IMG/VR virus record: IMGVR_UViG_3300026097_001075 | Location: 1-25,274 of that record | Reading direction: 5' to 3' (one strand) | DNA: 25,274 nucleotides | Source of the DNA: a virus | In this document: one piece after another, positions 289 through 25,274 of the stretch | Layout of the letters: each line of letters opens with the position of its first letter | Numbering within the stretch: the stretch's first letter is position 1 | Notes under the pieces: generated by a model | What the model saw: only the letters and a program-made list of their open reading frames with translations | What the model was told of the DNA's origin: nothing | Database searches by the model: none | Translations under genes and position numbers: made by a program

Positions 289-3200
289 TTAACCTAATGT
301 TGCAATTTCACCAGTGTTTTTAATTCTAAGCGGAATGTATATAAATTCAATCGCTTTTACTGGCTCTATAGCAATGTCTAAATAAAGCTCATTTCTATCA
401 ATTCTTGCAGGTGTATTGTTTGACTCATCACACACTGATAAGAAGTCATACAACGCTCTTAGACTTACTAGTTCTAACAAGAACGCATCTGCTGCTGCTT
501 TAACTTGATCTCTTGTTATCTTGTCATTAGGCTCAAACAGATATGGTTTTACCAGTCTTTCCAGCTGCACTCTCATATAAACAATCAGTCTCGCAACATT
601 AACTCTGTCAAGTGCACTTGCATTTCTAGCACGAGTCTTTTGTCCAAACACAACAAGTCCGCTTCCGGAAAGGAATGTAATTGGGTTTATTGAGTTTGAA
701 TAAAGAACATCACGCTGTCCAGTGTTTAGTGCTACTGGTACAAACTCACCCTCACTGTTAATATAACCAGAACTTGTAGCGTTTGTTACTCCGCCTCGGC
801 GTGTGCCTGCAGGTGCAAACCATGGAAATGCAACTTGGTCATTCAGTATAAGTGTTCTCAGTGCCATATGACTCGGAGGAACAACTACGTTATTACCTGC
901 ATTGTCACTTGTAAAGCCCCATGGGTAATACATGCCCAAGTACTCGTCAAAGCTTACTGCGCCCTGATCGTTGTCTTCCACAGCTAGTCTAACATTAGTT
1001 GCCCACTCATTTAGTGATGTAGCATCAGGTGTAAGTCTTGCAGGAGTGTCACCTACAACAAATGAACTTAGTCTACGATCATAATTAAGTGTTACCATTT
1101 CGCCGATTAGCTCTGGATAACCAGGTGTTGCCATTAGATTAAAGAATCTTGACTCTTCGTCTCTAATTTCCTGGTTTGAATTAACCATTGCCTGTAGTCT
1201 CTGAATAACTACTTTACGCTGTGCCAGACGACCAAATGTGCCCGATCCGTCTTCTTGATTGCCTGACTCAGTTACCCAACGGTGTGGAAAGTAATCTTGC
1301 ATTGCTTGGTCTGCACCTTCAAGGCTATAAAAATCAATTCCTTGTGTTGTTTCTACTGGAAATCTGATGTTGTCCTGGGCAGTGTTAATATAGTTGCGTT
1401 CAAAACGCTTTACATTGAATCCACTTCTACGTAGATTCCAAAGCAACATACCTCTTGGATACAAGTTAGGATCTGGTGCATCTGGATCTTTATAATTGCT
1501 TAGTAATAGATCTTCAATGCTTGCAGCTTCCGAGTTAGAACCTGCATCACTCCATCGAGCATCAGCAAATACTATACCTTCTTCACTGGTTTGATCAGTA
1601 CTATCTATTTGAATCCACTCTTCCAATGTAGCATTCCAACGATAAATTGTTGGAAAGTTTTCTAATTCACTTGTGTCGATCCAAATATCATTATCAACCA
1701 ATGCATCGCCATTTAGCTGTGTTGTTGGAGCAGATGCTCCGATGCTTGGACCTGCTGAATCAGTACCTGGATAAGCAGTAGTATCTCTATAACCTACCCA
1801 GTCGTCTCCGTTGTGATACAGGATATCAACTTCGTCTATAACTGAACTGTACCATAGTTCTCCATCTGCTGTAAGATCTAGCGGCTCATCATTTGACGCT
1901 GTGTAGCTTAGAACTTTCCAGTTTGTTGCTGTATATGCAGCAGGTATTGTGCTACTAAGAGTGCCCGGAGTTAGATAAAGATTGTCAGTCGTTGATGGTT
2001 CGAATCCCATTTCGGTTAAAGTACCGTCAATATCTACAATCTGTATGTCGCCGCCAATTCTGTGACTTATCTCTACTCTGTTTTGTGCAGTAACCAAAGC
2101 ACGAATATTAACAAATCCTGCACCGTTTATTGCAGCAGCTAGAGCTGCTGCGTCACTGCTGGCACCAGTTGAAGTAAAACTAACTAGTTTGCTTTCGCTA
2201 AATTCTGCACGATTAATCAAAGTTTCTGCCATTGTAAATTCGTTATTGCTTGAACCTACTTCTAATGTACCTGAAACAATTTTTTTACTGCTAATAGTAG
2301 TTGCGCCGGCGGATACACGACGGAATATTTTATAATTAGCTAATGCCGGATCAACATTGTCTACATTTGCTCTAACATAAAGATCGCCAATATCTAAATT
2401 TGCTCCGCCGCCACTTCTGTCTAGATTAAACAGTGCAGCAGAATTGGTTTTGTATAGTGGTGCAAAGCGGCTTTCCCAAAGATTGGTTTCTGCGTTCCAT
2501 TGCTTAACACTAAAGTTGGCGCCACCGTTTGGAGTAGTTGTCTTTAACCAAATTGATCCTGTTGGACGTGCACTAAAGCCTTCTACTGGCGTAAATGCGT
2601 CAGTAACATCGTCACTGTTCTTGAATCTAGGAACCACAGTATGTGGATCGATATTCAATTTAGGAGCAGCATATCTAGTATCTCCGTCAGTTGCTGTTAT
2701 GCCAACTGAGCTTAGAATGTCACCTGACACATTTTGAATTGCTAGCAATCCGTCTGGATTAGTACCGTCCGAAGCAGCATTGCTGTTTACATAAATTTCA
2801 AGAGAACCATCTACTTCTGATGCCGAGACACCGTCAATCTCTATTGCGTTAATCGAAGTTGCTAAATCTGTAACAGTAGTACCTGCTAGAACTACAGTTT
2901 CGTCATTAATTAAAATGCTATCACTAGTAGCAAGAGTAGGATTCGAAGCTGAACCTCTCACTGTTGGCCAACTCCACTGCCATTCAGGAGAACCGACTTC
3001 GACCCATGTGCCTGTATCGTTCTTATACCAAACACGATTCATTGTTGTTGCTGCAACTACAGCATAGTCGCCTACGCCGCCGATTGATTCTAGAGGTGCA
3101 TTACTTAGGTCTAAATCAGCATCTTCTGTAATTACAATAGGATCAAGTATCGTAAAGCTTTGGCCACCGTCTGCACTTACAGGCTGAGCATTCCATTCTA

Positions 3201-3639
3201 ACAACCCAAAATCAGATACCTGTGTATCAAACCAATAAGTACCATCTGCAGGCTCACCGCCTGGTGCAGTAGCCGAAGGAGTTAATTTTGACACATCAAG
3301 ATCTGCTCTTGTTACGTAAACTCTGTTAGTAACTCCCAGCAGCGAATATGCAGTTTGTAAACCGTACTCGTTTAGTTCTGATCCATGAATCATATTGTTG
3401 TTGTTGTCGCTGTAGAATGTTGGATCTCCAAATAGATCGCCTAGTTCTCGTTGACTGGTTAGCAAGAACGGTCTACCTGCGTTTGATTTAAGTGTTCCTG
3501 ATGCAACGCCTGTGCCAGAAGCGTTTGCTTTGTTTTCTGCAGAAACGACGAAAATCATTGGTACTGTGCCTGCCGATGCCGGAGTGTAAAAACTCTCGTC
3601 AATTACATTGACTTCTACACCTGGTGATACTAATGCCAT
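289..3639 (-). CDS. 18: Tail sheath protein gp18, enlarged
   Basis: Contractile tail sheath subunit. The N-terminus (MALVSPGVEVNVIDESFYTP) and the C-terminal section (residues about 1010-1116, with RVQLERLVKPYLFEPND and the ending EFIYIPLRIKNTGEIATLG) are typical of T4-family sheath proteins. The C-terminal part forms the conserved inner core in that family. At 1116 residues it is far longer than T4 gp18 (659). The extra length is in the middle, roughly residues 120-700, and holds several short tryptophan-rich units such as GTYWFDT and IYRWNATLEEW. These probably form extra beta domains on the outer sheath surface. Start: GAGGAG about 8 bases before ATG, with a late-promoter-like AATAAATA upstream. 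It is followed by gp19 as in T4. The sheath call is secure; the roles of the insertions are unknown. Confidence 0.93.
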   Translation of the reverse strand: MALVSPGVEVNVIDESFYTPASAGTVPMIFVVSAENKANASGTGVASGTLKSNAGRPFLLTSQRELGDLFGDPTFYSDNNNNMIHGSELNEYGLQTAYSLLGVTNRVYVTRADLDVSKLTPSATAPGGEPADGTYWFDTQVSDFGLLEWNAQPVSADGGQSFTILDPIVITEDADLDLSNAPLESIGGVGDYAVVAATTMNRVWYKNDTGTWVEVGSPEWQWSWPTVRGSASNPTLATSDSILINDETVVLAGTTVTDLATSINAIEIDGVSASEVDGSLEIYVNSNAASDGTNPDGLLAIQNVSGDILSSVGITATDGDTRYAAPKLNIDPHTVVPRFKNSDDVTDAFTPVEGFSARPTGSIWLKTTTPNGGANFSVKQWNAETNLWESRFAPLYKTNSAALFNLDRSGGGANLDIGDLYVRANVDNVDPALANYKIFRRVSAGATTISSKKIVSGTLEVGSSNNEFTMAETLINRAEFSESKLVSFTSTGASSDAAALAAAINGAGFVNIRALVTAQNRVEISHRIGGDIQIVDIDGTLTEMGFEPSTTDNLYLTPGTLSSTIPAAYTATNWKVLSYTASNDEPLDLTADGELWYSSVIDEVDILYHNGDDWVGYRDTTAYPGTDSAGPSIGASAPTTQLNGDALVDNDIWIDTSELENFPTIYRWNATLEEWIQIDSTDQTSEEGIVFADARWSDAGSNSEAASIEDLLLSNYKDPDAPDPNLYPRGMLLWNLRRSGFNVKRFERNYINTAQDNIRFPVETTQGIDFYSLEGADQAMQDYFPHRWVTESGNQEDGSGTFGRLAQRKVVIQRLQAMVNSNQEIRDEESRFFNLMATPGYPELIGEMVTLNYDRRLSSFVVGDTPARLTPDATSLNEWATNVRLAVEDNDQGAVSFDEYLGMYYPWGFTSDNAGNNVVVPPSHMALRTLILNDQVAFPWFAPAGTRRGGVTNATSSGYINSEGEFVPVALNTGQRDVLYSNSINPITFLSGSGLVVFGQKTRARNASALDRVNVARLIVYMRVQLERLVKPYLFEPNDKITRDQVKAAADAFLLELVSLRALYDFLSVCDESNNTPARIDRNELYLDIAIEPVKAIEFIYIPLRIKNTGEIATLG

Positions 3640-5692: not shown

Positions 5693-6853
5693 ATTCCTAG
5701 AATATCTTTATATAGACCTGAACGTGGTAATGACTACGAGTTTCTTGATCGACAGATTGAAGAAATGTTTACTGTAGGTGGAACAGATATCAATATTCAC
5801 AAATATATCGGAGTAGAAGGTGCTGCCGAAGGCGAAGGCACTGCTGATCAACCTGCATATGATGCTGTTAGCGAAACAAATATTCAGGATCTTTTGTTTT
5901 TAGAAAACAGAGATAGAAAATACGACAAAGACGTGTATACCCACAGATGTGTATACAATGTTCAAGATATTGATTTTGATCTCAGCCAGTTTGGTTTGTT
6001 TCTATCAAATGACACACTGTTCATGACTGTGCATATTCGCAGTATTGTAAAAACCATAGGCCGTAAACCCATATCAGGTGATGTTATAGAACTGCCGCAT
6101 CTCAAAGACGAATATGCTCTCAATGATTTTTCATTTGCACTGAAAAGATTTTATGTAATTGAAGACGTAAATCGAGCAGCAGAAGGTTTCTCGCAGACTT
6201 GGTGGCCGCACCTATACAGATTAAAACTAAAGCAGATCTACGACGGTCAGGAATATGCAGACATACTAGACTTGCCTGCAGACGAGGAATCAGACACTAC
6301 ACTGAGAGATCTACTTAGTACATATGAGACAGAAATGCAAATCAGTGACGCTGTGGTTTCACAAGCAGAAGCAGATGCTCCTAAGAGCGGATTTGAAACT
6401 AGACATTTTTACACCGTGGCACAGAACGAAGACGGTACTGTTGCTCTTAGAACTGTAGATGAAGACATTGACACCAGTGCGTTTTCTGTTACAGCAGATC
6501 AAGTTTTTGACACACCCGGCAGAGAAGCATATACAGGATATCTAATGAATTATAGCGACGGTGTGCCGCCCAATGGTTCTCCTTTTGGTTCAGGCATACA
6601 GTTTCCTACTGCGTCTTATGAAGGCGATTTTTTCTTAAGAACTGACTTTGTGCCAAATAGACTTTTTAGATACGACGGAAAAAGATGGATTAAATTTGAA
6701 GACGATCTAAGAATGGATCTATCTAACTCTGACACAAGAAACACACTGAGAACCAGTTTTACAAACAACACAAATGTCAATACAATCGGCGGCGAAGAAA
6801 TACCAGAAAGACAAGCTGTGTCAAAAGCATTAAGACCAAAGGCAGATAACTAA
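5693..6853 (+). CDS. 14: Neck protein gp14, apparent ATT start
   Basis: Head-completion/neck protein family; its place directly before gp15 and opposite gp13 supports the name. The first ATG in frame is at 5765, but the reading frame is open upstream and encodes PRISLYRPERGNDYEFLDRQ, which looks like the normal start of marine-phage gp14 proteins (YRPxRGNDYxFxDRxIxEMF). No ATG, GTG or TTG occurs in that extension. An ATT at 5693 lies 7 bases after GGGAG, so ATT initiation (386 residues) is proposed; ATC at 5690 is an alternative. The middle contains DFDLSQFGLFLSNDTLF. The region from about residue 310 carries a tryptophan-type motif (GDFFLRT...LFRYDGKRWIKF) also seen in the sheath. The stop overlaps the gp15 ATG (TAATG), suggesting coupled translation. 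Confidence 0.8.
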   Translation: MPRISLYRPERGNDYEFLDRQIEEMFTVGGTDINIHKYIGVEGAAEGEGTADQPAYDAVSETNIQDLLFLENRDRKYDKDVYTHRCVYNVQDIDFDLSQFGLFLSNDTLFMTVHIRSIVKTIGRKPISGDVIELPHLKDEYALNDFSFALKRFYVIEDVNRAAEGFSQTWWPHLYRLKLKQIYDGQEYADILDLPADEESDTTLRDLLSTYETEMQISDAVVSQAEADAPKSGFETRHFYTVAQNEDGTVALRTVDEDIDTSAFSVTADQVFDTPGREAYTGYLMNYSDGVPPNGSPFGSGIQFPTASYEGDFFLRTDFVPNRLFRYDGKRWIKFEDDLRMDLSNSDTRNTLRTSFTNNTNVNTIGGEEIPERQAVSKALRPKADN

Positions 6854-8292
6854 TGGAATTCTTTTATGATGGGCAAATAAGACGTTACACTACTCAGCTG
6901 ATGAGATTAATGAGCAATTTTCCTGTAAAAGACGGCAACGGAAATATCAAACCTGTTCCTGTTATGTATGGTGATTTGACTCGTCAAGTTGCTAGTATTA
7001 TTCGAGAAAATTCAGAAAACAAATTGCCTAGTGCTCCAAGAATGAGTGTTTATATAACAGGATTAGAACAGGATCGTTCAAGAACCAGTGACAGCACTTT
7101 TGTAAGTAAATTGAATATTCGTGAACGAAAATATAACGAAGAAACAGGTGAGTACGATAATATACAGGGAAAAAACTACACCGTAGAAAGATTAATGCCT
7201 ACACCTTATACGCTAAAAGCAAATGTAGATATCTGGGCAAGCAATACTGATCAAAAATTGCAGATAGCTGAACAGATATTGGTATGGTTTAATCCCAGTT
7301 TAGAAATTCAAACCACAGACAACTTTGTGGATTGGACTAGCCTTACTGTAGTAAATCTAGAAGGTATCACCTGGAGCAATCGAAGTGTTCCTGTAGGTGT
7401 CGATTCAGAAATAGACGTGGCTACACTGAGTTTCAGTATGCCTATCTATATCAACGCTCCTGCAAAAGTAAAAAGACTAGGTGTAATTACTGATATTATA
7501 ACAAGTATTTTCAACGAACAAACTGGCGATCTAGAACAAGGAATAATCAATAATATAAACAATGAAGCTGTTGTTGCTCCTATTGACAATGGCAACGGTA
7601 CACGAATACAACCTACAGTTCCGGGTGAAGCAGTAATCAATATAGCTATTCAATCTCTTGCTGTAAATTATGATGAATATGCTCTTTTTATTGAAGGCGA
7701 AAAAGCAATAATCATAGACAATCGAGGTAATATAGGAATAACAGATTGGTTTGCAGTGTTAGATGCGTTGCCTGGTACTTATATACCAGGAGCAAGCAGA
7801 ATTTATATTTCAAACAGAGATGACGGAAACTTCAGTTCAGGAACATTTACTGTTAATCTGGACGATCGAAGAGAACTTGCAATCGACTGGGATGCAGACA
7901 GTTTTCCTGATGACACGGTTATTTCAGGTCCTGCAGGTGATAGAACTACAATAGATTATATTATCAATCCTATAAATTTCAATCCCACTTCAATCAAAAC
8001 ACCAGGATTAAGAATACTGCTGTTACATGATATCGGTGCTGAAATAAACACAGATGGTGCAGACGCTTGGAAAAGCAACAGTGGTGAAGATTTTATCGCT
8101 AGTGAAAATGATATTGTAGAATGGGACGGCACAAAATGGAACATTGTTTTTGATGCAAGTTCTGCAGAAGAGACTATATATGTAACTAATCTACGCACAG
8201 GTGTGCAATATAAATTTGACAACGGCGAGTGGATCAATTCCATAGACGGCGAATATCCAGTTGGAACATGGGGTATGATTCTCGACGCATAA
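6853..8292 (+). CDS. 15: Tail terminator / sheath stabiliser gp15, C-terminally extended
   Basis: Residues 1 to about 220 match the T4 gp15 layout: an N-terminal FFYDGQIRRYTTQLMRLMSN block (T4: YFYNSSFRRYATLMGDLFSN), then RMSVYITGLEQDRSR, MPTPYTLKANVDIW, and QIAEQILVWFNPSLEIQ (T4: QIVEQILPYFQPHF). In T4, gp15 caps the finished tube and sheath and connects to the neck. At 479 residues it is much longer than T4 gp15 (272). The extra C-terminal half is beta-rich and includes IVEWDGTKWNIVF, similar to short motifs in gp14 and the sheath. Its ATG overlaps the gp14 stop codon. It ends 8 bases before the Nudix gene. Confidence 0.85.
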   Translation: MEFFYDGQIRRYTTQLMRLMSNFPVKDGNGNIKPVPVMYGDLTRQVASIIRENSENKLPSAPRMSVYITGLEQDRSRTSDSTFVSKLNIRERKYNEETGEYDNIQGKNYTVERLMPTPYTLKANVDIWASNTDQKLQIAEQILVWFNPSLEIQTTDNFVDWTSLTVVNLEGITWSNRSVPVGVDSEIDVATLSFSMPIYINAPAKVKRLGVITDIITSIFNEQTGDLEQGIINNINNEAVVAPIDNGNGTRIQPTVPGEAVINIAIQSLAVNYDEYALFIEGEKAIIIDNRGNIGITDWFAVLDALPGTYIPGASRIYISNRDDGNFSSGTFTVNLDDRRELAIDWDADSFPDDTVISGPAGDRTTIDYIINPINFNPTSIKTPGLRILLLHDIGAEINTDGADAWKSNSGEDFIASENDIVEWDGTKWNIVFDASSAEETIYVTNLRTGVQYKFDNGEWINSIDGEYPVGTWGMILDA

Positions 8293-8752: not shown

Positions 8753-9895
8753 ATGACAAAAGTTTTAATTATTGGTGATGTTATTGTTGACAAATACATA
8801 CACGGAACGTCTACAAGACTAAGTCCTGAAGCACCGGTTCCTGTTGTTACACAAAAAAAGATTACAGAATCCATAGGTGGTGCTGGACTTGTATATGAAA
8901 ATCTTAAAAGTCTCGGTGTTGATGTTGAACTTTACGATCACGGTGAAGAAAATAGCATTAAAACTCGTGTAATCTGTGACGGGCATTATGTTACACGTAT
9001 CGACGATGATCGATATGCTAACAGCACAGCCGTTTTAAACAAGGTCGTTAATGATGATTTTTCCAAGTATGATTATGTTATACTAAGTGACTATAACAAA
9101 GGTGTGCTGGACGAATCTTATCAGATTATCAAACACATTAATCGTTTCGGATGTCGTGTTATTGTAGATCCAAAGGATTATGCTATACACTATGACGGTG
9201 CTTGGCTAGTAAAACCCAATTACAAAGAATTTCGAGATTTTGAATTTACCGTCTGGAAGGGCAATATCATCACTACTAATGCAGGAAACAATGTTACTGC
9301 AATGATAGATAACACAGTGTATGATATACCTGTAGACACAGTTGAAGTATCAGATGTAACAGGTGCAGGAGACTGTTTCTTAGCAGCATTTGTATACGGA
9401 TTGTCTAGAGGATACGATTATCAAACCTGTTTAGAACTTGCTGTAAAAGGATCTGCTGCTAGTGTAAAACACACAGGTACCTATGTTCTCAAAGTTGAAG
9501 ACATAGAAGAACGTGTTGTTTTCACAAATGGCGTATTTGATATATTACATCAAGGACATTTAAAGTTATTGTCAGAAGCATATACATTAGGTACTAAACT
9601 GATAGTGGGCTTAAATTCTGATGCCAGTGTCAAAAGACTAAAAGGCAACGCAAGACCAATTAACGATCAACAAAAAAGAAAAACACAGTTAGAAATGTTA
9701 CCTTGGATTTCTGAGGTAATAATTTTCGAAGAAAATACTCCTTATGAATTAATCAAACAGACAAAGCCGCATGTTATAGTAAAAGGTGGAGATTACTCGG
9801 TTGACGAAGTAGTAGGCAACGATCTAGCCGAAGTGTATATTGTTCCTACTGCTGAAGGTTATTCAACTACAAATATTATAGAGGCAAGTAAATGA
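8753..9895 (+). CDS. hldE: HldE-like bifunctional heptose-7-phosphate kinase / heptose-1-phosphate adenylyltransferase
   Basis: Two fused enzymes of ADP-heptose synthesis. Residues 1 to about 250 are a PfkB/ribokinase-type kinase: IIGDVIVDKYIHG, RLSPEAPVPVV, GGAG near residue 43, KPNYKEF, and the catalytic GAGD at 204-207. Residues from about 255 are a cytidylyltransferase-like domain with TNGVFDILHQGH (H266-x-G-H269), LNSDASVKRLKG, VKGGDY and GYSTTNII, all close to E. coli HldE. The kinase would form heptose-1,7-bisphosphate and the second domain ADP-heptose. At 380 residues it is about 100 shorter than E. coli HldE (477), and the loss is in the kinase half; catalytic motifs remain. It starts the four-gene cassette, and its stop overlaps the hldD-like start (ATGA). 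Family assignment is strong; exact sugar specificity is inferred. Confidence 0.9.
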   Translation: MTKVLIIGDVIVDKYIHGTSTRLSPEAPVPVVTQKKITESIGGAGLVYENLKSLGVDVELYDHGEENSIKTRVICDGHYVTRIDDDRYANSTAVLNKVVNDDFSKYDYVILSDYNKGVLDESYQIIKHINRFGCRVIVDPKDYAIHYDGAWLVKPNYKEFRDFEFTVWKGNIITTNAGNNVTAMIDNTVYDIPVDTVEVSDVTGAGDCFLAAFVYGLSRGYDYQTCLELAVKGSAASVKHTGTYVLKVEDIEERVVFTNGVFDILHQGHLKLLSEAYTLGTKLIVGLNSDASVKRLKGNARPINDQQKRKTQLEMLPWISEVIIFEENTPYELIKQTKPHVIVKGGDYSVDEVVGNDLAEVYIVPTAEGYSTTNIIEASK

Positions 9896-10716
9896 AAATA
9901 CTAGTAACCGGACACAAGGGATTTATCGGGTCAAATATAGCACTGTATCTGCTTAATCAAGGACACGAGGTAGAAGGTTGGGAATGGCAACCGGGTATCA
10001 TTCCCAGCACAGAAGATTATGATTGGTGCATCCACACAGGTGCTATATCATCAACTACCTACACAGATGTTGATCAAATTCTAGAACAGAATTTTGAATT
10101 CTCAGTTAGATTAGCACAGGTGTGTGAAAACTTTGGCACAAATCTACAGTATGCATCAAGTGCAAGTGTGTATGGTCCTACAGAACATTTTACCGAAGAC
10201 GGCGCACTGTTACCGCAATCACCTTATGCATGGTCAAAATATCTGTTTGACAGATTCATAAATCAATTCAAAGATGAATTTGAAATTACAATACAAGGAT
10301 TTCGCTACTTCAATGTATATGGTGCTGGTGAAGAACACAAAGGCGATCAAGCATCACCGTATACTAAGTTTACTAAACAAGCAAAAGAAAACGGTGTCGT
10401 AAGACTGTTCAATGATTCTGATCAATATCGTCGTGATTTTGTATCTGTAGACGATATTTGCCGTTTACATGAAAAAATGTTTTCAATTAACAAAACAGAT
10501 ATATTCAATGCAGGTACAGGCGTTGCTACGAGTTTTGACACAGTAGGACGTGCTATAGCTAAAAAATATTCTGCAGACATAGAATATATACCCATGCCTG
10601 ATGAACTTAAAAATCAATATCAAACATACACCTGTGCAGATTTAACAAAACTAAATTCAGTTGTAGATATAAACTGGACAACTATAGAGGATTACATAAA
10701 TGGAACAACCAACTAG
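9892..10716 (+). CDS. hldD: HldD-like ADP-heptose 6-epimerase
   Basis: An extended short-chain dehydrogenase/reductase closely resembling E. coli HldD (RfaD), which converts ADP-D-glycero- to ADP-L-glycero-D-manno-heptose. The NAD(P) site GHKGFIGSN is at the N-terminus (GxxGxxG). The catalytic pair is in YAWSK (Y112, K116). The HldD-specific EHKG follows, with K150 matching the second catalytic lysine, after GFRYFNVYG. Also diagnostic are GAISSTTYTD, RDFVSVDD, NAGTGVATSF and IEYIPMPDELKNQYQTYTCA (E. coli: [20 protein letters not shown]). Length 274 versus 310 in E. coli. It overlaps hldE by 4 bases and the cupin gene by 17, so translation is probably coupled. The HldD signature is clearer than for a generic epimerase. 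Confidence 0.9.
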   Translation: MKILVTGHKGFIGSNIALYLLNQGHEVEGWEWQPGIIPSTEDYDWCIHTGAISSTTYTDVDQILEQNFEFSVRLAQVCENFGTNLQYASSASVYGPTEHFTEDGALLPQSPYAWSKYLFDRFINQFKDEFEITIQGFRYFNVYGAGEEHKGDQASPYTKFTKQAKENGVVRLFNDSDQYRRDFVSVDDICRLHEKMFSINKTDIFNAGTGVATSFDTVGRAIAKKYSADIEYIPMPDELKNQYQTYTCADLTKLNSVVDINWTTIEDYINGTTN

Positions 10717-11095
10717 ACTAGAAGGATTTGTAAAAAAAGGCTGGGGCTACGAACTAATCTGGGCTACCAATGACAAATACTGTGGAAAAATTATGGTATT
10801 TGAAAAAGCTGGTGCTAAATTTTCTATGCATTTTCACAAAGAAAAAGACGAAACTTGGTTTGTTAACTCCGGACGTTTTAAGGTAAGATGGATCGATACC
10901 ATCACTGCTGAAATTTTTGAAAAAGAATTAGGTGAGGGCGAAATTTGGCATAATCCGCCGTTACAACCTCACCAACTAGAAGCATTAGAAAATGATTCGA
11001 GTATAACTGAAGTAAGCACTGCTGACTCGATAGCAGACAACTATAGATTAATTCCAGGGGATAGTCAAAGAATAAATGAGGACACTGATGTCTAA
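10700..11095 (+). CDS. Single-domain cupin, sugar-isomerase-like
   Basis: A 131-residue cupin with an exact first cupin motif: G38, H44-x-H46, E51 and G58 in the spacing G-x5-HxH-x4-E-x6-G. The second motif has PPLQPHQLEAL with its metal-binding histidine. The KGWGYELIW opening resembles the cupin half of mannose-6-phosphate isomerases and related sugar-phosphate enzymes. The ribosome-binding site GAGG is 9 bases before ATG, inside the end of hldD. It sits between hldD and gmhB in overlapping reading frames, so it probably acts on a heptose intermediate. Its reaction is not known; an aldose-ketose isomerase or epimerase are the obvious options. It could stand in for GmhA, which is not seen here. 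Confidence 0.75.
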   Translation: MEQPTRLEGFVKKGWGYELIWATNDKYCGKIMVFEKAGAKFSMHFHKEKDETWFVNSGRFKVRWIDTITAEIFEKELGEGEIWHNPPLQPHQLEALENDSSITEVSTADSIADNYRLIPGDSQRINEDTDV

Positions 11096-11711
11096 TATCT
11101 ACTGGGGCGAGGATCCTATGCAAGATCCTAACTACGTCGCTCCAAAGCCAGTTATTGGTTTAGATAGAGACGGTGTAATAAATGTAGATCGCGGAACTTA
11201 CACATGGAAAACAGAACAATTCGAGCCTATTCCTGGTAGTCTCGAAGCGATTGCAAGGATTAGAAAACTAGGTTATAAAATTGCAATAATAACAAATCAA
11301 GGTGGTATTGACAAAGGGTTATACACCGAACAGGATGTTGATATTTTACATAACCATCTGCTGGAATTGCTAGGAGAAGCAGGATGTCCTAGTATTGATG
11401 CAATCTATTACAGTGCCAGTTCGAACAAAGGTGATCCTTATGCAAAACCTGCAACAGGAATGTTTAAACGTTGCGAAAAAGAAATGGCATGGAAAAAGAT
11501 AAAATTTTCTAAAGGATTTTATGTAGGAGATAAAATAACAGATCTCAAAGCTGCTTGTAAAATCAAAGCAAAGCCTGTTTTAGTGCGTACAGGTTATGGC
11601 TCAGATACTGAAAAGGAGTTGAAGAAATTTACCTATCGTGATATTAGGAAAAAGACCGCAGTGTTTGACGATCTTTCTAGTTTTGTAGATTGGTTAGAAG
11701 CACTGAATTAA
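11088..11711 (+). CDS. gmhB: GmhB-like heptose-1,7-bisphosphate phosphatase (HAD family)
   Basis: A HAD phosphatase of 207 residues. Motif I is GLDRDGVIN (nucleophile D26, acid/base D28); motif II is IITNQGGIDKG (T69-N70-Q71); motif III lysine is K120 in YAKPATGMF; motif IV is YVGDKITD (D148, D152). The TNQGGI and GMF elements are typical of the GmhB/histidinol-phosphatase group, and the operon partners favour GmhB, which removes the 7-phosphate between the two HldE steps. The cysteine/histidine zinc loop of E. coli GmhB, expected just before motif III, is absent; the short loop reads YYSASSNKGDPYAKP. Start at 11088 is chosen because GAGG lies 6 bases upstream; an ATG at 11076 is an in-frame alternative. 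It overlaps the cupin gene by 8 bases and the opposing giant gene by 4. Confidence 0.82.
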   Translation: MSNIYWGEDPMQDPNYVAPKPVIGLDRDGVINVDRGTYTWKTEQFEPIPGSLEAIARIRKLGYKIAIITNQGGIDKGLYTEQDVDILHNHLLELLGEAGCPSIDAIYYSASSNKGDPYAKPATGMFKRCEKEMAWKKIKFSKGFYVGDKITDLKAACKIKAKPVLVRTGYGSDTEKELKKFTYRDIRKKTAVFDDLSSFVDWLEALN

Positions 11712-18870: not shown

Positions 18871-18878
18871 TATTTATT
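18871..18878 (-). promoter_or_regulatory. T4-type late promoter for the 138-residue structural gene
   Basis: The minus strand reads AATAAATA, 18 bases before the ATG and upstream of AGGAACC. It overlaps the last codon of the carbamoyltransferase gene. Confidence 0.6.
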
Positions 18879-20670
18879 AATTTTTAACTGTTATTAATTT
18901 ACCAAATTCAGGCAAGTATAGATATTCAATGTCACTTTGTTGTAATGTCCAGAGTGCATCTTCTAGTGTTTCTACAAGAGGTTCTCCACCTAAATTAAAA
19001 CTGGTATTAAAAACAATAGGAACACCGGTACGATCTTTAAATGTTTTGATCAGATCATAATAATGTGGATTTTGTTCTTTATTTACAGTCTGTATACGAC
19101 AAGTTCCATCTACATGAATAATACTTGGAATTTTTTCCTCTACTCCAGGTTGACAATTTACAGCATACATCATTGTAGGCGAGCTGTCCATGCCTCTTAA
19201 ATCAAACCATTCATGGACATCTTCTTCTAGGATCGATCCTGCAAATGGACGAAAATATTCTCTACGCTTAATTTCGTTAACAAAATCTTTGCCATCTTTG
19301 AAAGTAGGATCAAAAATCAAGCTTCTGTTGCCTAATGCTCTTGGGCCATTTTCTGAACGTCCTTGAAATAACGAAACAATATTTTTTGATGTAATTAAAT
19401 CAATAACAGTTTCATTTGTAGCGTCTTCAACAATTGCGTTGTATTTGTTGCTTAATTCTGTTATATTTTCTTCTGTATAATCGTATTTAGGTCCTAGATA
19501 AACAGCGTCTTGCTGGGTTCTAACTGAAGTATCTCCTGTTTTATGATAATGCCAAACTAAGGCACAACCTATAGCAGTTCCAGCATCGTTAGATACAGGT
19601 TCAACATATAAATTAATATCTAAATCGTCTAATTCTTTAAGATAAAAATAATTAGCTACACAGTTTAGCCCGTATCCACCGCTGACTACAACATTTTTAA
19701 TCCCTGTTTTTTCAACTGCATATCTAATATAATCTGCTGCTGCTTGTTGAGTTTCTTTTTGTACAGCATATGCTAGATCTCTACGATTTTCTAATGTTGT
19801 TAAATCTTCTGCAGTATTGTCATTTAAAAATTTATAAAAAGCACTATTTATAACTGCACCATTTGGATACCTAGGAAGAATAATATTTCTATTAGTTAAA
19901 GGATTGGGCAGGTCTGTCTCGTCCATTAACGAAGGAAAACTATTATTTTCTTTACCGTACGGACTTAGGCCCATGGTTTTTCCTGCTTCGATACTGACCC
20001 AACCACAATATTCAGTTACTGCTTCGTATGCTTTTACAATACCTGCTCTATCGCTAAAACTTACTTCAAAGGAGCCTGCTGGTTCCCAAGATTCTGCTAT
20101 ATGTTCTTGTTGATGAATTCCAACAAACATATCTCGTGTTCCTAGTGTTTTGTGTTTTGTAATAATCTGATCAGGATAATTACAAGTAAATATACTTTCA
20201 GTTTCCCACATAGTTAATTGTTCTTGACCGAATGGAGTTTCTATACCTATAGGAAAAAATGTTCCTGCGCCGTCTATAATTACAGAAACTGCTTTTTCAA
20301 AACCACTGCGATAAAATGCAGCAGCGGCATGCATTTTGTGATGATATAAACTCATATCAATTACTTGATTTGTTGAATGAGGTTCAATTAATCCCATTTT
20401 GCGTGCTAAACCACTATATACATCTTCTCCGCTATAGTCTAATTTTCCAGCAGTTCCGTCTAAAGAAGTAGTATGGGCAACTACAAGATAATCTAATTTA
20501 TCAGTATATTCTTGAATTTTAAGCATACATGCTAGAGGTCCGCCGTCATATTTCTGTCTTGTTAATCTTTCTTCTTCTATAGCAAAAACAATTTCGCCAT
20601 CTTTCATTAAACAAATTGCAGCATTATGTCCTCTAGCAATTCCTGCTATCCATATAGATTTATCGCTCAT
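18877..20670 (-). CDS. O-carbamoyltransferase (NodU/CmcH/TobZ family)
   Basis: A 597-residue, two-domain enzyme, close to the family norm. The N-terminal Kae1/HSP70-like domain starts IAGIARGHNAAICLM and holds IEEERLTRQKYDG, the metal-binding histidine cluster YHHKMHAAAAFY (around residues 109-117), VIIDGAGTF, and VVSGGYGLNCVANY. The C-terminal YrdC-like domain has QGRSENGPRALGNRSLIFDP (from about residue 434), REYFRPFAGSILEED and VPIVFNTSFNLGGEPLVET. Members transfer a carbamoyl group from carbamoyl phosphate, via a carbamoyl-adenylate, to a hydroxyl of a sugar or similar acceptor. AGGA lies before the ATG. It follows the GT9 gene after 19 bases with no promoter between, so the two probably act on the same sugar product. 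The acceptor is not known. Confidence 0.9.
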   Translation of the reverse strand: MSDKSIWIAGIARGHNAAICLMKDGEIVFAIEEERLTRQKYDGGPLACMLKIQEYTDKLDYLVVAHTTSLDGTAGKLDYSGEDVYSGLARKMGLIEPHSTNQVIDMSLYHHKMHAAAAFYRSGFEKAVSVIIDGAGTFFPIGIETPFGQEQLTMWETESIFTCNYPDQIITKHKTLGTRDMFVGIHQQEHIAESWEPAGSFEVSFSDRAGIVKAYEAVTEYCGWVSIEAGKTMGLSPYGKENNSFPSLMDETDLPNPLTNRNIILPRYPNGAVINSAFYKFLNDNTAEDLTTLENRRDLAYAVQKETQQAAADYIRYAVEKTGIKNVVVSGGYGLNCVANYFYLKELDDLDINLYVEPVSNDAGTAIGCALVWHYHKTGDTSVRTQQDAVYLGPKYDYTEENITELSNKYNAIVEDATNETVIDLITSKNIVSLFQGRSENGPRALGNRSLIFDPTFKDGKDFVNEIKRREYFRPFAGSILEEDVHEWFDLRGMDSSPTMMYAVNCQPGVEEKIPSIIHVDGTCRIQTVNKEQNPHYYDLIKTFKDRTGVPIVFNTSFNLGGEPLVETLEDALWTLQQSDIEYLYLPEFGKLITVKN

Positions 20671-20689: not shown

Positions 20690-21637
20690 TTATTTCTTAG
20701 ATATAAATTTAAATGTTTTTTCTACTTGTTCGATGATAGCATCTTCTACTGCACTGTTCATTTGCATTATACCTTCATTTACTCTGTCAGTAAACTCGTC
20801 AATAGTGATTCTAATAGGACTATAACGTTTTACACCATCGCCCATATCTAAAACTTTAAATATTTCTGTATCTGGGTAAGAAACATTTTCTCTAAAGGTA
20901 CTTCCTAAAACAACTGTAGCAGGTATATCAAAGGCATATGCAATATGTTGACCTACACTATCGCAGCCTAAAAAATGATCACTTTTAGATATAATTGCTG
21001 CCCAAGTTCTCAAATCAATACCTTGAGGTATTGCAACAGGTTCAGATACACCATGTTTGTTAAATTCTATACCAATTTCACTCATAAAAATTATAGCGTA
21101 TTTCTTGCTTAATTTTTTTACAATATTAATAACGTGTTCTGGTTCAAAACTTCTTCCACTAAAGTCAGTTACCATACCGTTTTCATTTATAACGCCTCTG
21201 CCAAAAGGCTGAAACACAATCACTTTATCTTTTTTTGTTTTTTCTTTAACTTCGTTTATAGTTTTTTTTGCAATTATATATTCTTGTTTGCTGCATCTAA
21301 TTGTCGGCTTTTGAAGATCTCTTATGCCTTTATTGTTTATTGCAATATCATATGCTTGAGATAAACTGCATTTTTGATTGTAATATTCCCAAACTCTATA
21401 AGGTTCAGGACTTGACAGATTCATGTCTTTTAATTTATCTTCGAAAAGATTCTTATGCCATACATCATATGCTTTTTCGTGCAATATAGAATGGCTTTTA
21501 AAAAAATCTGTTCCACCTTCACAAACTATTATAAAATTGTCTTCTGGATTTTCTTCGTGAAATTTTTCTAATGCAGGTATACTACAAATAACTCGGCCGG
21601 CTCCGCCGTTGATAAAAAATGCTGTGTTTCTTGACAT
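20690..21637 (-). CDS. GT9-family glycosyltransferase, heptosyltransferase-like
   Basis: A 315-residue protein with the two-domain GT-B pattern of family 9, which includes ADP-heptose:LPS heptosyltransferases. The N-terminal loop NGGAGRVICSIPALEKF corresponds to the GDxxxxxPAL element of WaaC. The linker region has VIVFQPFGRG. The donor-site region (about residues 205-245) reads LRTWAAIISKSDHFLGCDSV then GQHIAYAFDIPATVVLGST, parallel to the WaaC VDTGLSHLTAALDRP...YGPT segment, with C-D-S-V in place of D-T-G-L. Donor specificity is not proven, but a heptose donor fits the HldE/HldD genes in the same window. It is the first gene after a perfect TATAAATA late promoter, and its AGGA ribosome-binding site lies in an inverted repeat. 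The acceptor could be a virion protein, a glycan or host LPS. Confidence 0.72.
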   Translation of the reverse strand: MSRNTAFFINGGAGRVICSIPALEKFHEENPEDNFIIVCEGGTDFFKSHSILHEKAYDVWHKNLFEDKLKDMNLSSPEPYRVWEYYNQKCSLSQAYDIAINNKGIRDLQKPTIRCSKQEYIIAKKTINEVKEKTKKDKVIVFQPFGRGVINENGMVTDFSGRSFEPEHVINIVKKLSKKYAIIFMSEIGIEFNKHGVSEPVAIPQGIDLRTWAAIISKSDHFLGCDSVGQHIAYAFDIPATVVLGSTFRENVSYPDTEIFKVLDMGDGVKRYSPIRITIDEFTDRVNEGIMQMNSAVEDAIIEQVEKTFKFISKK

Positions 21638-21709: not shown

Positions 21710-22609
21710 TTAACCCAAAGGTGGTTCTTGCATAGAAACTTTCCAAGCTGGCACTAGTTGTTTTTTTGATAAAGAAATAATTGCACCTGTTCCGGATCCA
21801 TTTGTAGTGTAGAATACGTCAGAATAATTGCCTGCTTCGGTATGATAAAACGCTTTTGCATGTGTTATTTTATTTACTGCTGTAATTCCTCCAGAGTCAT
21901 CTACAGAAGTAACTTCAACTAGTATTTCATTTACTGGTTGATTGTTTTTATATCTAGGATCGTTTATACTGATTTTATCGCCTATACTATAATTAGTTCC
22001 GCCATTTTCTATTTTTACAGTCCAACTTACTCCATAAATTTCAGGAAAATCTCTTAGATATTGTCTATAATTTTTTACTTTAATTGCTAGAGACTCCGGC
22101 AAATCTTCTGAAGAAATAACATCACTAGCATTTATTGCAGAGCTACGAAGATCGAAAAGAATATCCCAAGTCATTTCTGGTTTTTTCCAAGGAAACGGTT
22201 TGACAAAACTTTTTCTAGAAGGATCGTATTCAATCTCAGTAAGCTCATAAGTTTCAATGGGCTTCGAAGGTTCGTTGTATGTATAAGGATAACCATTGTA
22301 CTCAATTTCCTCAGTAAGCTCTTCAATTCGACCATCTTCAAATTCGTGTTTTTGCCATATTGAACAAACTAATGTGTCTTTATTACAATCTACTTCTATA
22401 GCGTAATCGTTATCTGCATTTTCGTTGTATGTTTTATATATTTCAGAGGTAATATCTCTACCTGTCAATTTATTTGTATCAGCATCTATAATTAAATAAA
22501 TCTTTTCAGGACCATTGTATGTTAAAGTTGTAGTTCTATTTTGTTCTCCTGAATTAACAAACATTTCGTCTGCTAATTTATATGTAAAATCTTTACTTAT
22601 ATTTTTCAT
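21710..22609 (-). CDS. Fibre-assembly-chaperone-like protein with an inserted repeat domain
   Basis: A 299-residue paralogue of the protein at 24155-24811. Shared features are a beta-rich start with TYNGPEKIYLIIDADTNKLT (paralogue: KYTGPDRIWVFVDEKTGAFS), a middle with YELTEIEYDPSRKSFV and a WDILFDLRSSAINASD helix, then YRQYLRDFPE, and the end AWKVSMQEPPLG. The LRD-P and final P-P pattern resembles tail-fibre assembly chaperones. Between YRQYLRDFPE and AWKVSMQEPP, where the paralogue has about 10 residues, there is an extra domain of about 90 residues matching the giant protein's tandem repeat. The start is set at ATG 22609, 7 bases after AGGA; an upstream GTG at 22615 is too close to that site. 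It lies directly after an adhesin-like gene. The chaperone role is inferred; a structural role is possible. Confidence 0.6.
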   Translation of the reverse strand: MKNISKDFTYKLADEMFVNSGEQNRTTTLTYNGPEKIYLIIDADTNKLTGRDITSEIYKTYNENADNDYAIEVDCNKDTLVCSIWQKHEFEDGRIEELTEEIEYNGYPYTYNEPSKPIETYELTEIEYDPSRKSFVKPFPWKKPEMTWDILFDLRSSAINASDVISSEDLPESLAIKVKNYRQYLRDFPEIYGVSWTVKIENGGTNYSIGDKISINDPRYKNNQPVNEILVEVTSVDDSGGITAVNKITHAKAFYHTEAGNYSDVFYTTNGSGTGAIISLSKKQLVPAWKVSMQEPPLG

Positions 22610-22625
22610 TATCACTTCCTAGTTA

Positions 22626-23372
22626 TTAAAAATAAACCACATAAACTAATCCGCCGGCACCAGGGCCGCCGCAACAACACCCGCCGCCGAAAGCTTGCGC
22701 AGTGCCTCCGCCGCCGCCGGGCCACATGCCAAATGCGATTGAACCTCCGTGAGCACAACATCCATTTCGTCCGATCGCCGGACCTGGTATAAATGGAGCG
22801 TTTGCTCTTAAATAAAATCCTCCATCGAAGCAGCTCCTGGACGTTCGGCCGCCGCCGGCAGTTCCAGGAATAGAAAAATCTGTATTAACGGATCTACCAC
22901 CACAACAATAACACATTGTACAGCACGTATAACAGTTAGCATAATAATCGCAGTTAGCAGCACTATTCGGAATGCCCCCACATACTTTAGCTTCCCAAGT
23001 TGATTCGCCGCCGCCGCCTAGTGAACAAACAAAGCTGCAATTGCCCTGTGATCCAGCACAACTATTGCTACAAGTAGTAGAACCAGCAGCACATATTCTT
23101 ATAGATTGACCTGGTGCTACTGTACACACTTTAATTCCATAGCCACCACTTCCTGCGCCATTGCCCTGCTGACAGCATCGGCCGCAGCCGCCGCCTCCCC
23201 CGCCACTCCAAATTTCAAATATTGCCGTAGATACTCCTGCTGGAACTGTCCATAAACAGCAGGCACCACCGTTTGAAGCAGTGGTAATATCCGTGTCGTA
23301 AACACTAAATTCACCTGGTATAAGCTCTGAAGGTTCTTCGTATCCGAACAATAAATCTCTAAGATTAGGCAT
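22626..23372 (-). CDS. Cysteine- and glycine-rich adhesin-like protein A
   Basis: A 248-residue protein with an unusual composition: about 25 cysteines and many glycine runs (GGGGGG, GGGGG). The N-terminal 30 residues are ordinary, then a conserved TTASNGGACCLWTVPAGVS opens the rich region, and it closes with GGPGAGGLVYVVYF. Cysteines often come in pairs or triplets (CC, CCC). Proteins of this type recur near fibre genes of T4-like marine phages. The glycine tracts resemble the polyglycine helices known in T-even type distal fibre adhesins, so a receptor-binding role is likely but not shown. No signal peptide or enzyme motif is seen. AAGGA precedes the ATG. It is paralogous to the next gene and follows it by 12 bases. 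Confidence 0.72.
   Translation of the reverse strand: MPNLRDLLFGYEEPSELIPGEFSVYDTDITTASNGGACCLWTVPAGVSTAIFEIWSGGGGGGCGRCCQQGNGAGSGGYGIKVCTVAPGQSIRICAAGSTTCSNSCAGSQGNCSFVCSLGGGGESTWEAKVCGGIPNSAANCDYYANCYTCCTMCYCCGGRSVNTDFSIPGTAGGGRTSRSCFDGGFYLRANAPFIPGPAIGRNGCCAHGGSIAFGMWPGGGGGTAQAFGGGCCCGGPGAGGLVYVVYF
23231..23285 (-). repeat. 55-bp direct repeat, copy 1 (adhesin A)
   Basis: This 55-base stretch matches 24011-24065 at all but four positions, exactly 780 bases away and in the same reading frame. It encodes the TTASNGGACCLWTVPAGVS block. The DNA similarity is much higher here than in the surrounding paralogous sequence, which suggests recent duplication or gene conversion. Confidence 0.85.
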
Positions 23373-23384
23373 GTTTATTCCTTT

Positions 23385-24155
23385 TTAAATATCTTGTACT
23401 ATAGGATAGTAAATGTTTACTAAACCACCTGCTCCGGGCCCACCGCAGAATGGACCTGTGGTATGAGAAACAGCAGACGGGCCGCCACCGCCTGGCCAGC
23501 GTGCGTAACCACCTGAACAACATCCTCCGCAGAATCCAGAACACCCGTCTTTAGAATAACCATTATTAGACATTGTAAATGGTGCCTGATTCATTGTTTG
23601 CCAAGTTTGTGTCGAACAATGCGAACTTCCTTTTGCACCTCCGTAGATTCCTGGAATGCCCATTGTACCGCAAAATGATGTCAAGCTATTCTGTACATGT
23701 TGGCAACCTGAATTACTACAGTTCAATTGAAAGTCACATCTAGTAGTTCCCGCTGTTCCGCCTGCTGCACAAATTTGTACTGCACCTCCATTTATGCTTA
23801 CAAAGCTAGGAAACGACGAACATCCTGTAGTGCTTCGGCTACAACCTGTAGAACCTGCTGCACAAATAGTATATTCTTCACCACCGTCGCCACTTAATCC
23901 TGTAATAAATTTACGAGCGTAGCTTCCGCCGCCGCCGCCCCATCCAGCGCGACAACAACAGGCCTCGCCGCCGCCGCCGCCGCCGCCCCACATTTCAACA
24001 GCAAACCATGATACTCCTGCTGGAACTGTCCATAAACAACAAGCACCACCATTTGAAGCAGTAGTTTTGTTTGAATTAAAAACATACAGCGTATCAAAAT
24101 TTATACTTTTATTTACTTCGCCACCTATCTCTAATAATGTTCTTAGTCCGGCCAT
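23385..24155 (-). CDS. Cysteine- and glycine-rich adhesin-like protein B
   Basis: A 256-residue paralogue of adhesin A. After a 30-residue start it carries KTTASNGGACCLWTVPAGVS, then WGGGGGGGEACCC, a glycine-rich body with about 19 cysteines, two ICAAG segments, and the shared end GGPGAGGLVNIYY followed by a short PIVQDI tail. The seven-glycine run is encoded by seven identical GGC codons, a trinucleotide repeat. Predicted role as for protein A: a distal fibre adhesin with polyglycine structure, perhaps stabilised by disulfides. AGGAG precedes the ATG, and the start overlaps the chaperone-like stop codon (TAATG), so the two proteins are probably made together. Confidence 0.72.
   Translation of the reverse strand: MAGLRTLLEIGGEVNKSINFDTLYVFNSNKTTASNGGACCLWTVPAGVSWFAVEMWGGGGGGGEACCCRAGWGGGGGSYARKFITGLSGDGGEEYTICAAGSTGCSRSTTGCSSFPSFVSINGGAVQICAAGGTAGTTRCDFQLNCSNSGCQHVQNSLTSFCGTMGIPGIYGGAKGSSHCSTQTWQTMNQAPFTMSNNGYSKDGCSGFCGGCCSGGYARWPGGGGPSAVSHTTGPFCGGPGAGGLVNIYYPIVQDI
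23967..23987 (-). repeat. Seven-unit GCC trinucleotide repeat encoding polyglycine
   Basis: Seven perfect GCC units on the plus strand (GGC codons on the coding strand) encode the Gly7 run of adhesin B. In this AT-rich genome it stands out. Changes in copy number would alter the glycine run without shifting the frame. Confidence 0.9.
24011..24065 (-). repeat. 55-bp direct repeat, copy 2 (adhesin B)
   Basis: The partner of 23231-23285, with four differences in 55 bases. It encodes the same TTASNGGACCLWTVPAGVS block at the start of the glycine-rich part of adhesin B. Confidence 0.85.
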
Positions 24156-24811
24156 TAAGCATCTCCTGGTGGTGTTGGAAATCTAACTTTCCATGCATCT
24201 ATTTCGTTTTGGGTACCTTTACCAAATGTTGCAGGTAAATCTCTTAAGGCTTGTCTATATTCAATCCAAGGTTGTTTAACACTATCTGGCTGATCTGGTG
24301 CAATCTTTCCATCACTTGCAGTAAGAGCACCATTTCTTGCATTTATAACATCGTCCCAAGTTATAGACGAAGTTTGGTAATCTGGAACAATCCATTTATT
24401 ATCTTCTAAATTGTAAATTAATTCGCTTAGATTATATGTTTGATCTATTGTAGGTATTTCATTATATTCTACTGTAGAACCGTTTGGTAAATTTTCTGTA
24501 ATAGTAGTTTGATTTAGTGTTTCTACATTACTTCCTAAAATTAATGAAATAATAAAAGGATTATCTTCAGCTACAACTTCTACTTTTTTATGTCCTACCG
24601 GTGTTGGAACATCTGCACCATCTTCTCTTGCTGTAAGTGGCGGAGTTACTCTTGAGAAAGCACCTGTTTTTTCGTCTACAAAAACCCATATTCTATCAGG
24701 ACCTGTATATTTTGCTGTTCCTGTTTTCCTTTCGGAATCATCCAAAGAGTATATAACGTTTGGTACGTTGTATGTAAACTCTATGGTTGTATTTATTACT
24801 TCGCTTGGCAT
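24155..24811 (-). CDS. Fibre-assembly-chaperone-like protein
   Basis: A 218-residue protein in the same family as 21710-22609 but without the inserted repeat domain. It has KYTGPDRIWVFVDEKTGAFS, a middle with YNLSELIYNLEDNKWIVP and TWDDVINARNGALTASDG, and a C-terminal WIEYRQALRDLPATF...AWKVRFPTPPGDA. The YRxALRDxP helix and closing P-P motif resemble phage tail-fibre assembly chaperones. It lies between two adhesin-like genes, overlapping the next ATG by one base, as expected if it helps fold or load an adhesin. GAGG lies before the ATG. A virion-structural role cannot be excluded. Confidence 0.6.
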   Translation of the reverse strand: MPSEVINTTIEFTYNVPNVIYSLDDSERKTGTAKYTGPDRIWVFVDEKTGAFSRVTPPLTAREDGADVPTPVGHKKVEVVAEDNPFIISLILGSNVETLNQTTITENLPNGSTVEYNEIPTIDQTYNLSELIYNLEDNKWIVPDYQTSSITWDDVINARNGALTASDGKIAPDQPDSVKQPWIEYRQALRDLPATFGKGTQNEIDAWKVRFPTPPGDA

Positions 24812-24823
24812 ATTTTATTCCTC

Positions 24824-25274
24824 TTAACTAAATGTTAGTATGACTAGACCACCGGCGCCTGCTTGACCAAAACAATAGCCGCCTCCGCAAACTCTTGCTG
24901 CTGCTCCGGCGCCAGCAGGCCATGAACTAAATGCTTGACACATTGCTTCGTTTCCTGACCGGCCGGGGTCATGAACACAAAAGTCGCCTGTTTGCTTTGT
25001 AGAATTTAATCCTCCGGCTACCATTTCGAACTGATATTGGTTACAGAATCGGTTAGAAAAATATTGTCCGCCCATTCCAGTGAACGTTATATCGCCGCTG
25101 CCTTCAGATGATTGTTGGCTCCAGCAACAGGTATATCCTCTACAATGACTTCCTCTGGTCATCTGGCTACATCCGCCTTCGCCGCCCGGAGCACAACCTA
25201 CCAATGATGATGTACCATTATTAAGTACATATGTTGTAAATGCTGTATTACCAATACCGCAACAGCAACAACAA
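24824..25274 (-). CDS. Cysteine- and glycine-rich adhesin-like protein C (start outside window)
   Basis: The frame stays open to the right edge, so the start codon is outside; about 150 residues are visible. The visible part begins with five consecutive cysteines followed by GIGNTAFTTYVLNNG, continues with GCAPGGEGGCSQMTRG and YTCCWSQQSSEGSG, and ends GQAGAGGLVILTFS, matching the GAGGLV ends of proteins A and B. A TTG at 25204 could be mistaken for a start but lies within the ongoing protein. It is the third adhesin-like member and is followed by the chaperone-like gene after 12 bases. Confidence 0.7.
   Translation of the reverse strand, partial: CCCCCGIGNTAFTTYVLNNGTSSLVGCAPGGEGGCSQMTRGSHCRGYTCCWSQQSSEGSGDITFTGMGGQYFSNRFCNQYQFEMVAGGLNSTKQTGDFCVHDPGRSGNEAMCQAFSSWPAGAGAAARVCGGGYCFGQAGAGGLVILTFS

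Follow-up and report, generated by a model that had tools for sequence, protein, structure and literature searches.

A cysteine-rich fibre-tip array

What use does a tailed phage have for large numbers of cysteines (Cys) at the tip of its tail fibre? The question is raised by three Cys- and glycine-rich adhesin genes and two chaperone-like genes at one end of the IMG/VR virus record IMGVR_UViG_3300026097_001075, of which positions 1 to 25,274 (25,274 bases, here called the window) were analysed. The tail proteins and their neighbours are of the marine cyanophage type, and for the 1,941-residue structural protein the closest isolates are Synechococcus phages S-CAM1 and S-CAM3 (40-43% identity). 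From sequence comparisons we consider it somewhat more probable than its negation that this phage heptosylates its fibre-tip Cys, perhaps with carbamoyl-heptose, through a glycosyltransferase of family 9 (GT9) encoded beside the array.

24824..25273, minus strand: adhesin C, partial; 149 residues visible, 15 Cys, N-terminus lost at the window edge
24155..24811, minus strand: tail-fibre assembly chaperone 1; 218 residues, 0 Cys; PF16778 E 4e-8, phrog_9740 E 3e-24
23385..24155, minus strand: adhesin A; 256 residues, 19 Cys; TNF-like and Gly-rich fold; PF21722, phrog_4205
22626..23372, minus strand: adhesin B; 248 residues, 25 Cys; phrog_4205 E 4e-17
21710..22615, minus strand: chaperone-like protein 2; 301 residues from a GTG start, 2 Cys; phrog_9740 E 6e-23

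Read 5' to 3' on the minus strand (21710-25273), the genes follow one another almost without gaps, at spacings of 12, -1, 12 and 10 bases. An initial annotation of this DNA had described the array in this order, with the labels A and B swapped relative to ours. The five consecutive Cys that it noted in adhesin C are present. Because this CCCCC stands right at the window edge, where the visible part begins, adhesin C is regarded as truncated; a complete orthologue lies at L003:6584-7336 (43% identity). The count of 19-25 Cys per adhesin given in that annotation holds for the two complete genes, and not for C with its 15 visible Cys. The Cys content is 7.4% for A, 10.1% for B and 10.1% for the visible part of C, compared with 0.53% for the remainder of the window (39 of 7420 residues; binomial P 4e-16, 4e-24 and 5e-15, respectively). 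Glycine accounts for 21-22% of A and B.

Adhesins A and B are 42% identical to each other. Adhesin A scores above the cut-off for PF21722 (Gly_rich_2), and B below it (E 3e-4). Likewise, chaperone 1 passes the Pfam gathering score for Phage_tail_APC (33.4 bits vs 26.6) and chaperone 2 does not (17.4 bits); phrog_9740 is common to both. Relatives of chaperone 2 suggest an ATG start at 22609 instead of the GTG. Its C-terminal extension (21710-22015), which chaperone 1 lacks, is weakly similar, below the cut-off, to domain I of the tail-sheath protein Gp18.

Since searches of PDB sequences gave no match with the adhesin profile and no meaningful match with the GT9 profile, we turned to fold comparison. 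The AlphaFold model of adhesin A (predicted local distance difference test, pLDDT, 84) is best matched by the fibre of cyanophage Pam3 (7ypx; Z 18.3, root-mean-square deviation 3.1, 193 residues aligned; Foldseek E 6e-7). Lower matches were a tail-tip chain of mycobacteriophage Bxb1 (Z 12.6) and the ligand-binding domains of ALK/LTK (8.4-10.4), and the next row was at 4.2. The matched section of the Pam3 fibre is its receptor-binding part, the proposed receptor-binding end of gp24, which is covered by its chaperone (PMC9608196). The Gly-rich motifs of Pam3 have near-beta dihedral angles and form a four-layer lattice (PMC9608196), and the polyglycine helix bundles considered initially do not emerge from the fold match. 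By contrast, the pairing of adhesins with chaperones suggested at that time agrees with the PF21722 and Pam3 matches of adhesin A and the Phage_tail_APC match of chaperone 1. Fold and context together thus support the identity of adhesin plus chaperone well, and, as judged from the model, the three Cys/Gly-rich proteins look like subunits of the receptor-binding tip of a cyanomyovirus tail fibre.

Cysteine-rich fibres beside a family 9 glycosyltransferase

The next gene after the array encodes the GT9, followed by a carbamoyltransferase:

20690..21637, minus strand: GT9, an enzyme of heptosyltransferase fold and the proposed adhesin modifier; phrog_8954 E 1e-146
18877..20670, minus strand: NodU/Nol-like carbamoyltransferase; PF16861 E 9e-58, PF02543, phrog_1601

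Many relatives (e.g., L003:11565-12413) carry between these two genes an extra protein of about 280-320 residues with no Pfam or NCBIfam match, which the window lacks. The GT9 and the heptose genes described below lie outside the interval covered by the initial annotation, which did not mention them.

When Gly-rich fibre domains were sampled irrespective of Cys, they fell into two classes, most with 0-2% Cys and a few with 5-14%. The second class tends to have the GT9 as a neighbour. At viral loci with the Gly-rich "WTVPAGV" fibre, a GT9 was found at 0/87 Cys-poor and 6/11 Cys-rich loci (Fisher P 4e-7), and a search of whole records added two more GT9-bearing cases among the latter. Starting from the enzyme, a Cys-rich open reading frame (ORF) was present in 70 of 80 phrog_8954 loci in IMG/VR, the other 10 being cut off on the array side. 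When the scan was repeated with a GT9 alignment of greater diversity, Cys-rich tail-like ORFs were found in 67 of 81 loci, a count in which the 125-residue ORF of five loci was not accepted; two further loci were truncated, and the remaining 12 form two groups, of five and seven, where this GT9 and the fibre are not neighbours. The first group is represented by the whole jumbo contig G001, where a second GT9 lies about 1.7 kb from a fibre of about 2,380 residues with 132 Cys. This fibre (177601-184728; L386:17601-20000 and L387:1-4728) consists of YadA-head-like repeats with Cys at non-equivalent repeat positions.

Among 50,697 phage records, GT9 (at least 40% identity) and Cys-rich adhesins pick out the same cyanophages, and in the two GT9 carriers without an adhesin match other Cys-rich proteins adjoin the GT9. 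For these phage searches an S-SSM7 adhesin was an effective query; tblastn with adhesins A and C of the window gave no match, probably due to the low-complexity filter. The Cys-rich fibre proteins of S-CAM1 (three) and P-SSM2 (two) all lie beside GT9, and none was found in nine complete cyanophage genomes without GT9. The association extends beyond cyanophages. In the Vibrio podophages SBP1, K479 and D505 the gene immediately after the GT9 encodes a tail protein with 38-41 Cys, and in Aeromonas phage HJ05 the GT9 directly follows a fibre with 23 Cys; PHROG matches label these proteins tail fibres. The HJ05 enzyme, used as a query, had no relative in genome_contigs. Unrelated-looking Cys-rich proteins, for which no PHROG or family match was found, lie beside the GT9 of AG-345-O18 (73 and 31 Cys) and AG-345-P14 (26 Cys). 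The two of AG-345-O18 (L206:4024-6297 and 6297-7166) are located between heptose genes and GT9.

As the Cys-rich partners of GT9 differ in architecture, their shared richness in Cys cannot be put down to a structural requirement of the Gly-rich fold. This diversity also bears on metal binding. Dense CC and CxC motifs could ligate iron, zinc or copper, for example to exploit metal-uptake receptors, yet a constant ligand spacing was not observed across the unrelated architectures, the Cys of the jumbo fibre occupy several non-equivalent positions of one repeat, and the GT9 would be left without a role. We regard metal binding as very unlikely.

Evolution of the cysteines

Further indications come from the way in which the Cys change. 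In pairs of 50-90% identity among 77 adhesins, Cys was the best retained residue (0.88); the values were 0.78 for Gly, 0.70 for Trp and only 0.44 for Ser. The residues that replace lost Cys are enriched in R/H/Q/W/Y (2.1x background) and poor in AVILM (0.45x). In comparison columns, the enrichment of R/H/Q/W/Y was 2.3 for Tyr, 1.6 for Arg, 0.7 for Ser, 0.2 for Ala and 0.5 for Gly. This replacement profile suggests an exposed bulky polar site, rather than buried thiols or half-cystines. Furthermore, differences in Cys count were odd in 25 and even in 18 of the 43 close pairs that differ, and the total was odd in 46/77 adhesins. The Cys change singly, which speaks against pairwise disulfides. 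Because the compared pairs share ancestry, these patterns are support and not proof.

The strongest competitor, in our view still improbable, combines two ideas: the Cys would form disulfides that stiffen the tip, perhaps only once lysis has exposed them to oxygenated water, and the heptose and GT9 genes would alter the surface of the host, one possible purpose being to block superinfection. Paired CC motifs and the high Cys retention agree with disulfides. However, single changes and odd totals do not, nor do replacements that resemble those at exposed polar sites, and disulfides do not account for the association of GT9 with Cys-rich fibres across unrelated architectures. Of the three functions initially guessed for the Cys, namely disulfides, metal ligands and modification sites, the evidence thus favours the last, and the other two are retained here as rivals.

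The glycosyltransferase and its candidate acceptor

Although the window enzyme itself gave no match to a Pfam family, its affiliation with GT9 is established by its fold and by its relatives, 19 of 33 of which match PF01075 (best E 1e-6). Its model (pLDDT 92) is most similar to the GT9 structure 3tov (Z 25.1), WaaF (21.9), TibC (20.5) and WaaC (19.9). Subunits of the plant NDH complex share this fold (Z about 19), and all other matches were at or below 12.6. The four-Cys iron finger of the bacterial autotransporter heptosyltransferases (BAHT) was looked for and is absent from the window GT9, which has five scattered Cys and no CxxC. The enzyme is therefore not classified as a BAHT, even though its mode of action may resemble that of TibC.

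The closest functional models, TibC and AAH, modify Ser (PMC4358343), and the adhesins contain many Ser and Thr. In the manner of TibC, the GT9 could glycosylate the tips at residues other than Cys, such as Ser or Thr, and the Cys would then serve another purpose. We consider this rather unlikely, slightly more so than the disulfide alternative, as members of the Gly-rich family with a linked GT9 are set apart from those without one by their high Cys, and as Ser is poorly retained. Cys is thus the acceptor that we favour.

Heptose genes

A plus-strand operon elsewhere in the window offers a possible source of the sugar donor:

8753..9895, plus strand: HldE-like heptose-7-phosphate kinase / heptose-1-phosphate adenylyltransferase; NF008454 E 8e-81, TIGR02199 E 9e-46
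9892..10716, plus strand: HldD-like ADP-glyceromanno-heptose 6-epimerase; TIGR02197 E 4e-67
10700..11095, plus strand: small cupin; Cupin_2 E 1e-6, phrog_7851
11076..11711, plus strand: GmhB-like heptose bisphosphate phosphatase; NF006506 E 7e-40

The relatives of the small cupin are annotated as "cysteine dioxygenase". Its place in the heptose operon points to a different role, perhaps that of a sugar-phosphate isomerase replacing GmhA, which was not recognised in the window.

HldE was present in 5/5 GT9-positive cyanophage isolates and in 0/9 GT9-negative ones, and in P-SSM2 and S-SSM7 the heptose genes are adjoined by T4-GC 302 (GT9) and 303 (carbamoyltransferase). In the GT9-bearing phages SBP1 and HJ05 neither HldE nor HldD was found. 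Their Vibrio and Aeromonas hosts make lipopolysaccharide (LPS) that contains heptose. Cyanobacterial LPS has none (PMC4390846), and the distribution fits a heptose donor supplied by whichever partner, phage or host, can supply it.

A role of these genes at the host surface has been proposed before. In cyanophages the heptose genes have been interpreted as LPS genes, with the choice between "functional" and "stuffer DNA" left open (PMC3037559), and the phage glycosyltransferases of this region were assigned to host O-chain modification in pelagimyophages (PMC7029224). Against such a role stands the heptose-free LPS of cyanobacteria. A second difficulty, for this role and for disulfides alike, is Synechococcus phage S-SM2, which encodes HldE, HldD and the cupin (L517, about 151-160 kb) and has neither GT9/phrog_8954 nor a Cys-rich protein. 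This dissociation indicates that Cys-richness goes with the transferase rather than with the sugar genes themselves. A link of Cys to the heptose genes alone is thereby ruled out, and the heptose genes of S-SM2 must serve something other than Cys-rich tips.

Stability of the array

The order of the array (C, chaperone 1, A, B, chaperone 2) was the same in L003-L006 and in dozens of other contigs. Its surroundings are conserved as well, with two small proteins and a fibre of about 1,600 residues before it, and GT9 and carbamoyltransferase after it. S-SSM7 and Sf-FS3 have a second layout, in which a single chaperone accompanies three adhesins. When 13 arrays of the window type were placed in a tree, A, B and C formed position-specific groups with two label changes, the minimum. 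The three adhesins are old, co-inherited paralogues which keep their positions.

These results bear on the initial suggestion that the duplicate adhesin/chaperone sets are alternative, swappable receptor-binding tips. Two chaperones and three paralogous adhesins are indeed present. The constant gene order and the position-specific groups with so few label changes make this explanation the least probable of all those considered here, far below disulfides. Module swapping, for which a comparison of arrays among relatives had been recommended, is rejected in view of the tree.

At the opposite end of the window (292-3639) lies a tail sheath-like protein of unusual length (1,116 residues).

Proposed mechanism and significance

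According to the reading that we favour, the two chaperones would help to fold the three tip subunits. During infection of a cyanobacterium, with its heptose-free LPS, the phage would make ADP-heptose by means of the cupin (as the possible isomerase), HldE, GmhB and HldD. The GT9 encoded directly downstream of the array would then move heptose onto surface-exposed thiols of the tip Cys (S-heptosylation), and the adjoining carbamoyltransferase may carbamoylate the heptose. The tip would thus carry a dense sugar coat which shapes or protects the receptor-binding surface. Carbamoyl-heptose, suggested by the position of the carbamoyltransferase beside GT9, occurs in the LPS core of Pseudomonas. 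The sequences show the array, the folds of adhesin A and GT9, the pathway genes, their co-occurrence with Cys-rich fibres and the way in which Cys is substituted; from these we infer ADP-heptose as donor, the adhesins as acceptors, attachment to Cys, carbamoylation and the purpose of the coat.

Several observations weigh against S-heptosylation. The window GT9 itself has no Pfam match at E 0.1, and the best matches of HldE, HldD and GmhB are all below the curated equivalog cut-offs of NCBIfam. No clear strict sequon was seen around the Cys. In the jumbo contig G001, no HldE match accompanies the GT9 and the Cys-rich fibre. For the group of seven loci in the second scan, the one record examined in full (G004) offers a single, weak candidate, an RCC1-like protein that has 16 Cys and is encoded about 7 kb away from the GT9. 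Conversely, Cys-rich ORFs without GT9 occur on the contig fragments G008 and G010 (about 20 kb), and a moderately Cys-rich fibre domain without GT9 on G013. Finally, the locus counts are not independent events, because most loci are related.

The spread of GT9 over different phages raises a broader possibility, to which we give somewhat less than an even chance: surface-Cys fibres of unrelated tailed phages may have converged on receiving S-linked heptose from the phrog_8954 clade of GT9. Where the host lacks heptose, the phage would bring the whole ADP-heptose pathway, and where the host LPS contains heptose, the transferase only.

If true, S-heptosylation would explain the 7-12% Cys of some phage fibre tips, as well as the heptose genes that cyanophages carry despite the heptose-free LPS of cyanobacteria, a question open since 2010 (PMC3037559). 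It predicts heptose, perhaps carbamoylated, on the fibre-tip Cys of P-SSM2, S-SSM7, S-CAM1 and Vibrio phage SBP1. It would also add a phage-encoded S-glycosylation of a receptor-binding surface, with a bearing on host range, adsorption and phage ecology. Our search of the literature, subscription journals aside, found nothing relevant on Cys-rich virion proteins of cyanophages or on S-glycosylation in phage tail fibres.

Comparison with known systems

Sugars on Cys sulphur are known from the S-glycosylated glycocins sublancin and glycocin F, which are small peptides modified by a different glycosyltransferase family. Virion glycosylation is known from mycobacteriophages, in which a phage-encoded glycosyltransferase has likewise been put forward as the enzyme that adds sugars to the virion (Freeman 2023, as cited in PMC12619734). 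As described in the citing paper, that case concerns the C-termini of capsid and tail tube proteins, while ours involves fibre tips, a heptose donor pathway and Cys-rich acceptors.

The tip itself resembles Pam3 gp24/gp25 (7ypx/7yfw; PMC9608196) in its TNF-like and Gly-rich receptor-binding fold and in the dedicated chaperone gene adjoining it. It differs in that the adhesin A model lacks the long N-terminal alpha-helical docking bundle, having a single short helix at residues 4-8 with low pLDDT, and in the very high Cys content, the three tip paralogues with two chaperones, and the attached GT9 and carbamoyltransferase. The heptose genes are the same as the cyanophage "LPS" genes T4-GC 304, 305, 307 and 308 (PMC3037559); unlike in that earlier interpretation, those accompanied by GT9 are here tied to fibre-tip modification. 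The closest parallel for the modification is found in the autotransporter heptosyltransferases TibC and AAH (PMC4358343), which share the GT9-like fold and a neighbouring adhesin rich in candidate acceptor residues. In the window, the enzyme does without their CxxC iron finger, the proposed acceptor is Cys instead of Ser, and the putative substrate is the tip of a phage fibre.

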